From Lactobacillaceae bacterium L1_55_11 (GTDB lineage Bacteria > Bacillota > Bacilli > Lactobacillales > Lactobacillaceae): DNA of 64,000 nt. This document shows positions 27,666 through 29,853 of the stretch, one piece after another (position 1 is the stretch's first letter; the number at the start of each line of letters is the position of its first letter). The notes beneath the pieces are model-generated. The model ran no database searches and was not told the DNA's origin. It saw nothing but the letters and a program-made list of their open reading frames with translations. The DNA is taken from the NCBI GenBank assembly GCA_029433155.1, contig JAQYTT010000001.1, forward strand, positions 62,001 through 126,000. Direction: 5' to 3'. A program made the translations under genes and the position numbers.

Positions 27666-28223
27666 ATGGCGTTAAATTTAGATGGGCAGCATAAAGATGA
27701 ATTGTCACTGGTTGAGATCGCGACGGCAGTCTTAGACGACCAGGGACAGGCCATGCCTTTTTCGGATATGGTTGCTGCAATTGAGAATTTCTTAGGGGTT
27801 GATGATACGGCCTTCCGCCCCCGTTTGTCCCAGTTTTACACTGATTTAAACACGGATGGTTCCTTCATTTCCCTCGGTAATAATGAGTGGGCCCTGCGTT
27901 CTTGGTATCCAGTCGATGCCATCGATGAGTCCATCCACGAGATTGATGACGAGGAAGAAAAGCCAAAGCGTAAGAAGTCCAGCAAGAAGGTCAATGTCTT
28001 TGCGGACAATGCAACTGACGACGATGTCATCGACTATAACGATGATGATCCCGAAGACGACGACTTCGATGAGGTTGCTGACGATAACAAGTCTGACGAT
28101 GACGATTCTGACGACGATGACGACAGTGATCAGGGCGAAGAAGAGTCCATCGATGACAACCTAACTGAGCTGGCAGGTAGTGATGATTTGGACGACCTCA
28201 GCGATGGTGATGAAGAGAAGTAA
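27666..28223 (+). CDS. rpoE: DNA-directed RNA polymerase delta subunit
   Basis: 185 residues. The N-terminal ~90 residues form the HARE-HTH globular domain (LSLVEIATAVLDDQG, then FYTDLNTDGSFISLGNNEWALRSWYP). The rest is a very acidic disordered tail of aspartate and glutamate, interrupted by a basic KRKKSSKK patch. Delta binds RNA polymerase, displaces nucleic acids and sharpens responses to initiating nucleotide levels. AAAGGACG precedes ATG 27666. rpoE is normally followed by pyrG; here three genes intervene. Confidence 0.96.
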   Translation: MALNLDGQHKDELSLVEIATAVLDDQGQAMPFSDMVAAIENFLGVDDTAFRPRLSQFYTDLNTDGSFISLGNNEWALRSWYPVDAIDESIHEIDDEEEKPKRKKSSKKVNVFADNATDDDVIDYNDDDPEDDDFDEVADDNKSDDDDSDDDDDSDQGEEESIDDNLTELAGSDDLDDLSDGDEEK

Positions 28224-28260: not shown

Positions 28261-28289
28261 TTGATTTTTCATTTTAATAACTGTAGTAT
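28261..28289 (+). promoter_or_regulatory. promoter of the tRNA-Lys / permease unit
   Basis: TTGATT (28261-28266), 17 bases, TAGTAT (28284-28289). Transcription would start about 20 bases before the tRNA. Confidence 0.55.
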
Positions 28290-28317
28290 ATATAAATGTG
28301 CTAAGGCACGGAAAAAC

Positions 28318-28391
28318 GCTCCTGTAACTCAGTTGGTTAGAGTAGGGGATTTTTAATCCCAAGGTCCTCGGTTCGAATCCGAGCGGGAGCA
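28318..28391 (+). tRNA. tRNA-Lys (anticodon TTT), unusual
   Basis: Complete cloverleaf: acceptor GCTCCTG/CGGGAGC with A73, D-stem ACTC/GAGT, anticodon loop TTTTTAA giving TTT, T-stem CTCGG/CCGAG with TTCGAAT. No CCA is encoded. Oddities: the top anticodon-stem pair is G27-A43, the D-stem begins with A10-T25 instead of G10-C25, and the tRNA stands alone directly in front of a permease gene, with downstream RNA complementary to its own arms. It may be a working lysine tRNA, a regulatory tRNA mimic, or both. Confidence 0.85.
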
Positions 28392-28416
28392 CTGAGTTAC
28401 TCAGGCGACCTTGGGA
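28391..28416 (+). promoter_or_regulatory. tRNA-complementary segments in the permease leader
   Basis: ACTGAGTTAC (28391-28400) is the exact complement of D-arm bases 28324-28333. GACCTTGGGA (28407-28416) is the exact complement of 28357-28366, the 3' side of the anticodon stem plus variable loop. Each can also form a local hairpin (CTGAG-TTA-CTCAG and TTGGG-AGA-CCCAA). This looks like a switch between tRNA folding and leader folding. Confidence 0.55.
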
Positions 28417-28428
28417 GACCCAATTAAG

Positions 28429-28457
28429 GGTGACGTTCATCGAACGTCACCTTTTTT
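28429..28457 (+). terminator. terminator between the tRNA and the permease
   Basis: GGTGACGTTC, loop ATC, GAACGTCACC, then six T. A perfect 10-bp stem ending 17 bases before the permease ATG; it either ends the tRNA transcript or acts as an attenuator. Confidence 0.9.
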
Positions 28458-28473
28458 GTTAGAGGAAGAGAAT

Positions 28474-29853
28474 ATGGCAAAAAAACAAGGTGAATTAAAC
28501 CGGGACCTATCGTCCCATCAAATGCAGATGATTGCGCTGGGTGGCACCATCGGGGTTGGGCTTTTCATGGGCTCGGCCTCGACGATTAAGTGGACTGGCC
28601 CTTCAGTTCTTTTGGCTTATATGTTGGCTGGCTTGGTCCTTTACATTGTGATGCGGGCCTTGGGAGAAATGCTTTACGTTGATCCTGCCGTGGGCTCCTT
28701 TGCCAATTACGCCACCCGTTACATTCACCCGGTGGCCGGCTATGTCACCGTTTGGGCCAATGTCTTCCAGTGGTTAACGGTCGGCATTAGTGAAACGATT
28801 GCTGTTGGCCTATATTTAAACTACTGGTGGCCAGGCATTCCTGACTGGGTAACTGGGATTATTGTCTTAGTCACCCTGACGGCGGCCAACCTGGTCACCG
28901 TCAAAGCCTATGGTTCCTTGGAAAGCTGGTTCTCCCTTATCAAGGTCCTCACGATTGTCTTCATGATTATCCTTGGATTCCTGATTATTCTCTTTGGCGT
29001 TGGGAACCACGGCCACCCGCTTGGCTTTTCTAACATTTGGTCCCATGGGGCCTTCTTTGCCGGGGGTTTCAAGGGCTTCATGTTTGCCCTGTCGATTGTC
29101 ATTACCTCCTATCAGGCCATTGAGCTGATTGGGATTACTGCCGGTGAAGCGGCCAATCCGCAGGAGGCCATCGTGAAGGCGATTAAGTCAATTGTCGCCC
29201 GGATTATTATCTTCTATATTGGTTCCATCTTCGTGATCATTACGATTTACCCTTGGAACCGTCTGGCTGAGGTCGGTTCACCCTTCGTGGAGACCTTTGC
29301 CCGAGTCGGTATCACGGCGGCAGCAGGCATTATTAACTTTGTCATGTTAACAGCGGCCATTTCAGCCCTAAATTCCGGTATTTTCAGTTCATCGCGGATG
29401 CTTTACACCCTGGCCATGGACCGAGAGCTGCCGTCCTTCTTCTTGAAGCTCAGTAAGCACCGGGTACCGTCCGTTTCCGTGCTGGCTATGTCGGCCGGCA
29501 TCCTGCTGGGGATTATCTTAAATGCGGTCCTGCCAATGTTTTGGCATGGTAGTTCCAGCATCTTTGTCCTGGTTTATTCAGCCAGTACCTTGCCCGGCAT
29601 GGTGCCTTGGTTTGTGATTTTGATTAGTGAGATACGCTTCCGCCAGCAAAATCCCGACCTGATGGCTAACCATCCCTTCAAGGCACCGTTTTCACCAATC
29701 AGTAACTACTTTGCCATCGCGGTTTTGCTGATTACCCTGGTCTTTATGGCCATTAATCCTGAAACTAGGGGACCCCTGACCGTTGGTTTTGTCTTCCTAT
29801 TATTAGTTGTGGTTTACTACTTCTTCAAGCACCGCCACGATTCAACTTTGTAA
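28474..29853 (+). CDS. amino-acid permease, APC superfamily (AAT family)
   Basis: 459 residues from ATG 28474 (AGAGGAAG upstream; a TTG at 28411 would run through the terminator). Twelve membrane helices. IALGGTIGVGLFMGSAS is the consensus helix-1 motif, and ITAGEAANPQEAIVKAIKS the conserved loop after helix 6. It resembles the Gram-positive proton-coupled permeases related to ProY/YifK more than LysP itself, so substrate is uncertain; the tRNA-Lys in its leader makes a cationic amino acid worth testing. No separate promoter is visible between terminator and ATG, so expression may depend on read-through from the tRNA promoter. Confidence 0.88.
   Translation: MAKKQGELNRDLSSHQMQMIALGGTIGVGLFMGSASTIKWTGPSVLLAYMLAGLVLYIVMRALGEMLYVDPAVGSFANYATRYIHPVAGYVTVWANVFQWLTVGISETIAVGLYLNYWWPGIPDWVTGIIVLVTLTAANLVTVKAYGSLESWFSLIKVLTIVFMIILGFLIILFGVGNHGHPLGFSNIWSHGAFFAGGFKGFMFALSIVITSYQAIELIGITAGEAANPQEAIVKAIKSIVARIIIFYIGSIFVIITIYPWNRLAEVGSPFVETFARVGITAAAGIINFVMLTAAISALNSGIFSSSRMLYTLAMDRELPSFFLKLSKHRVPSVSVLAMSAGILLGIILNAVLPMFWHGSSSIFVLVYSASTLPGMVPWFVILISEIRFRQQNPDLMANHPFKAPFSPISNYFAIAVLLITLVFMAINPETRGPLTVGFVFLLLVVVYYFFKHRHDSTL

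Follow-up and report, generated by a model that had tools for sequence, protein, structure and literature searches.

A conserved self-complementary trailer on the only tRNA-Lys(UUU) found in the Leuconostoc–Fructobacillus–Convivina–Oenococcus clade

Layout of the tRNA-Lys(UUU) locus

The DNA analysed here – 'the window' – is a 64,000-nt stretch of the genome of Lactobacillaceae bacterium L1_55_11 (GCA_029433155.1, contig JAQYTT010000001.1, positions 62,001 to 126,000), and the features of the locus are collected in Table 1. ARAGORN and Rfam agree on a tRNA-Lys(UUU) gene with a full cloverleaf and the anticodon ttt, which scores well above the threshold of the tRNA family (RF00005, 68.4 bits versus a gathering score of 29). 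It is followed by a structured 3' trailer, a predicted terminator and a permease gene, the product of which is nearest to the ThrP-type threonine/serine transporters while remaining below the family cut-off. Upstream lies rpoE, and an rpoE-like gene occupies the same place in Convivina, Fructobacillus and many Leuconostoc loci.

Table 1. Features of the tRNA-Lys(UUU) locus, in window coordinates
Feature	Position	Strand	Remarks
rpoE (RNA polymerase delta subunit)	27666..28223		just upstream of the tRNA
-35 element of the tRNA-Lys promoter, TTGATT	28262..28267	+	TTG[AC][TA]T kept across aligned relatives
-10 element, TAGTAT, then conserved TATATAA stretch	28284..28289	+	41 loci compared
Leader hairpin GTGC-TAAG-GCAC, near inferred +1	28298..28309	+	all distinct leaders fold one
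tRNA-Lys(UUU), CCA not encoded	28318..28391	+	ARAGORN, Rfam
D-arm segment (helix a)	28324..28333	+	exact 10-nt complement of 28391-28400
Strand b, TCCCAAGGTC	28357..28366	+	3' anticodon strand and whole variable region; identical in 41/41 loci
D-arm complement, ACTGAGTTAC	28391..28400		exact reverse complement of 28324-28333 (direct reading)
Trailer hairpin T1, CTGAG-TTA-CTCAG	28392..28404	+	directly after discriminator base; 18 versions in 41 loci
Strand b', GACCTTGGGA	28407..28416	+	exact reverse complement of 28357-28366 (direct reading); 41-locus comparison
Possible local hairpin T2, TTGGG-AGA-CCCAA	28411..28423	+	would mask part of b'; cloverleaf-constrained fold
Intrinsic terminator of the tRNA unit	28426-28454, T run to 28457	+	predicted; relatives also have one after the trailer
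Amino acid permease	28474..29853	+	ATG at 28474; NCBIfam NF047867, 572.8 bits, cut-off 850

A preliminary description of this DNA had placed the tRNA, its two downstream complements, the terminator and the permease ATG correctly, and direct reading bears out its observation that two exact 10-nt complements of the tRNA lie within 26 nt of trailer. Its remark that no other promoter is visible holds for the permease in the window's genus, but the tRNA carries a conserved promoter of its own. Promoter, leader hairpin, tRNA, trailer and terminator are common to 41 distinct loci that we compared. The -10 element reads TAATAT, TATTAT or TAAACT in relatives, its placement in the window being inferred via those carrying TAAACT; the Oenococcus leader has a different sequence and still folds a hairpin.

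The only lysine tRNA with anticodon UUU

Our census of tRNA genes in the window's genome was built from stretches of genome sequence and compared 46 genes. It contains two further lysine tRNAs, both with anticodon CTT, so that the count of tRNA-Lys genes proposed in the preliminary description turned up no second Lys-UUU. A one-contig genome of the same genus has the same lysine set, with only Lys-CTT otherwise. Likewise, only Lys-CTT accompanies this tRNA in the clade genomes tested, in which the canonical Lactobacillaceae tRNA-Lys(UUU) was not found, whereas outgroup genomes keep a canonical Lys-TTT. An anticodon CTT does not read AAA. As judged by sequence, the tRNA is the sole AAA-reading lysine tRNA of this group of lactic acid bacteria in the genomes tested, and is probably a normal and essential one.

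This census bears on the suggestion that the tRNA is a specialised mimic: being the sole Lys-UUU gene of its genome, it does not stand beside a normal isoacceptor. The G27-A43 mismatch, which had been taken to support specialisation, is nothing special, the same stem being present in a Collinsella tRNA-Arg(UCU). The gene does resemble tRNAOther of Bacillus cereus, a non-translational pseudo-tRNA inside a larger transcript (PMC3399842), in being an unusual solitary tRNA-like gene of Gram-positive bacteria with a link to lysine. Unlike tRNAOther, it is the only Lys-UUU found in its genome, and for this reason we reject the reading as a dispensable pseudo-tRNA.

The unit is present in 42 of the 398 family genomes sampled, spanning six genera, and an order-wide sample contained it in no further genus; the named carriers are Leuconostoc, Fructobacillus, Convivina, Oenococcus and Leuconostocaceae bacterium ESL0958. 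The clade's tRNA is identical to the canonical tRNA-Lys(UUU) in 48 of 74 columns. A relative from another family of the order has Lys-TTT between Val(TAC) and Thr(TGT), and the tRNA array of the window's genome has no Lys at that place. Gene replacement or a change of anticodon are possible origins of the tRNA.

The tRNA body is closer to a Collinsella tRNA-Arg(UCU) and a Streptomyces phage tRNA-Lys(CUU), the nearest bodies seen (60–61 of ~75 aligned columns identical), than to the canonical Lactobacillaceae tRNA-Lys(UUU). We rejected the idea that the whole unit came from a phage or a plasmid: in such elements only sequences similar to the tRNA body occur, and the viral contigs hold no exact match to the core.

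The permease as a neighbour

The preliminary description had proposed that the tRNA and the strands downstream of it form a cis switch, in which aminoacylation of the tRNA, its binding by LysRS, its modification or its processing by RNase P could decide whether the terminator before the permease forms. The arrangement in the window's genus invites such a reading, since the permease starts ~20 nt after the terminator with no promoter called between the two. The relatives, however, make it very improbable. Leuconostoc, Convivina, ESL0958 and some Fructobacillus share the gene order with the permease downstream, and in most of these relatives the tRNA terminator and the permease are separated by a T-box. 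Detailed tests of four loci gave RF00230 matches of 77–98 bits, and the T-box motif GGTGGTACC is found in at least 24 of the 41 loci (some locus sequences are too short to reach the position). The specifier, placed by analogy with known T-boxes, is ACU (threonine) wherever matched; it belongs to a T-box ~290–435 nt after the tRNA in L003, L004, L005, L059, L067, L074, L080 and similar loci. Moreover, b' lies outside the terminator stem, and the trailer persists where other genes follow: alignment of the locus across Lactobacillaceae, which had been suggested as a check, shows unrelated downstream genes in L. fallax, Oenococcus and several Fructobacillus, with tRNA and trailer remaining. An operator of the thrS type, in which the regulated gene is conserved together with the tRNA-like element, does not match this variation among genera. 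In the Fructobacillus loci L062-L066, a convergent NAD synthetase-like gene, named by its reading frame only, replaces the permease.

The idea of tRNA-driven alternative folds was borrowed from T-box leaders (RF00230), of which a real example lies downstream in the relatives. The window locus itself lacks stem I, specifier and T-box sequence: there is no RF00230 match in the window, nor near C1:90 kb in a whole-genome scan, and neither the motif nor a specifier loop occurs upstream of the permease. In the relatives the T-box reads threonine, not lysine. With a threonine T-box in between and downstream genes that differ, control of the permease by the tRNA is unlikely; we rejected T-box-like control in cis and regard the permease, as far as comparison of the loci indicates, as a neighbour. 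The window's genus is apparently in a derived state, in which the permease lost its T-box and so ended up directly behind a tRNA terminator.

A conserved trailer strand complementary to the anticodon arm

Complementarity to the tRNA had been called unlikely by chance, and shuffled 26-nt trailers agree, containing one 10-nt match to the tRNA in 0.4% of cases and two in 0.1%. On the other hand, while the trailer has the longest self-complement among the 46 tRNA genes of the genome (10 nt), the runners-up are one trailer with 9 nt and three with 8; a single 10-mer is thus only mildly unusual, and conservation had to decide. Trailers of the genome's other solitary tRNAs are mostly short and simple. 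Conservation separates the two strands: the complement at 28407-28416 is kept in 41/41 loci and that at 28391-28400 is not.

The D-arm complement consists of the 5' side of T1 plus flanks and measures 10 nt in the window's genus only, ~9 nt in nine further loci and at most 5 nt in all the others, so that a conserved D-arm helix is ruled out. T1 itself is conserved as a structure. Every one of its versions can be read as a hairpin, in most loci in one register with UA to AU changes in the inner pair, and in 10 loci (L. fallax, some Leuconostoc, Oenococcus) only in a shifted register, which we read by hand. The D-arm complement is mostly a by-product of T1. The earlier proposal that downstream strands compete with the tRNA fold is supported for at least one of the two, b'.

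Beside a T1 with 18 versions, the b' core CCTT(T)GGG is constant in all 41 loci, occurring as GACCTTGGG in 22, GACCTTTGGG in 14 and GTCCTTGGG in five. Roughly a third of the loci have an extra U in b', which produces a bulge in b:b', and the Oenococcus pairing contains one U-U mismatch. Keeping the local hairpin T2 does not by itself explain b', since the right arm of T2 varies among relatives and b' does not. Covariation between tRNA arms and downstream strands, put forward earlier as a check, cannot prove b:b' because strand b is invariant.

Strand b' begins with five nucleotides that match the variable region, which the cloverleaf leaves unpaired, and ends with five that match the 3' anticodon strand, a layout suggestive of a toehold followed by a branch-migration strand. 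In nearest-neighbour calculations the b:b' fold beats the cloverleaf in nearly every locus, its energy relative to the cloverleaf-constrained fold averaging -5.0 kcal/mol (range -7.9 to 0). The difference between best fold and cloverleaf averages -4.1 for natural trailers versus -1.6 for shuffled ones; the natural value is attained by 12.6% of all shuffles, and 3 of 38 loci have a gap that does not improve on shuffled trailers. As the energy model is without tRNA tertiary contacts and modifications and overstates misfolding, these energies show a plausible competitor rather than the ground state in the cell.

We tentatively favour the reading that the precursor carries a built-in invading strand, b', that competes in cis with tRNA folding during maturation, and we place it above an unrelated sequence-specific use of b', itself a substantial though less probable alternative. 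According to the latter, this is an ordinary tRNA-Lys unit whose b' is kept as, for example, a site at which an RNase or a protein acts while the trailer is processed, its complementarity being incidental. T1 begins exactly at position 74 and is retained in all loci, as would fit a role in 3' processing, and the constancy of b' does not by itself name its partner. Yet a processing site need not be complementary to the variable region and anticodon strand over 9–10 nt, and the right arm of T2 is not kept.

The trailer is also conserved, flanked by hairpins and ended by a terminator, as would suit a small RNA that acts on mRNAs in trans after its release, in the manner of the E. coli 3' ETS from the glyW-cysT-leuZ precursor. 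The leuZ 3' ETS is an sRNA sponge that pairs with other small RNAs in trans. Both are conserved tRNA trailers with a possible pairing function, but the best partner of the present trailer is its own tRNA. Exact 10-nt sites other than b and b' number 0–2 per genome, and in one Convivina genome (G007) the 10-mer TCCCAAGGTC is present nowhere except at b and, on the opposite strand, at b'. We rejected a conserved exact target in trans on account of these few sites; action in trans, which might use imperfect pairing, is improbable.

Least credible, on a par with the cis switch before the permease, is retention of b' as part of a phage attachment site. Phages of O. oeni use a tRNA-Lys site whose core is 78 bp long (PMC8074189), and O. 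kitaharae (L138, L142) has a duplicated core of 64 bp that starts in the T-loop of the tRNA, takes in T1 and b' and extends into the terminator; an integrase-like reading frame lies next to the tRNA. However, no integrase was noticed at most of the loci, and a host would not keep a sequence over six genera for the benefit of a phage. In the two O. kitaharae loci the attachment site includes almost the whole trailer.

Under cis competition, the unit would be transcribed from its own promoter to its own terminator as a precursor with a leader hairpin and structured trailer, the source of the clade's sole tRNA-Lys(UUU). Strand b', 3' of T1, would pair first with five nucleotides of the variable region, which the secondary structure leaves single-stranded, and next displace the 5' anticodon strand; it would go on competing with the tRNA fold for as long as the trailer is attached. 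Folding of the tRNA, tertiary packing, modification or protein binding would settle the outcome between maturation and misfolding. The b:b' fold would then form in cells and control maturation, although RNase Z or RNase P may act before the rearrangement. The fuller version, in which b' invades by way of the variable region and opens up the anticodon stem, leaving the only AAA-reading tRNA of the clade bistable and its maturation open to checking or regulation by folding, modification or binding, we hold with somewhat less confidence.

Yeast offers a parallel: precursor tRNAs prone to misfolding need the La protein (Chakshusmathi 2003, cited in the review PMC5372738). There too a precursor has a competing non-tRNA structure and folding needs help before the trailer is removed; here, unlike in yeast, the competitor belongs to a bacterial trailer and is conserved, and no La homologue is assumed. 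A literature search lacking many subscription papers returned no prior description of the unit in Leuconostoc or Oenococcus, nor of trailer–anticodon switches.

Sequence comparison thus presents a tRNA with an ordinary role, decoding AAA, and an unusual conserved, self-complementary trailer, in a clade that as a whole appears to have swapped its standard tRNA-Lys(UUU) for one divergent single gene. If cis competition is correct, an essential tRNA would arise from a precursor in which the tRNA fold has a built-in rival, providing a quality check or supply control in cis on the AAA-reading tRNA – a new layer of bacterial tRNA biogenesis.
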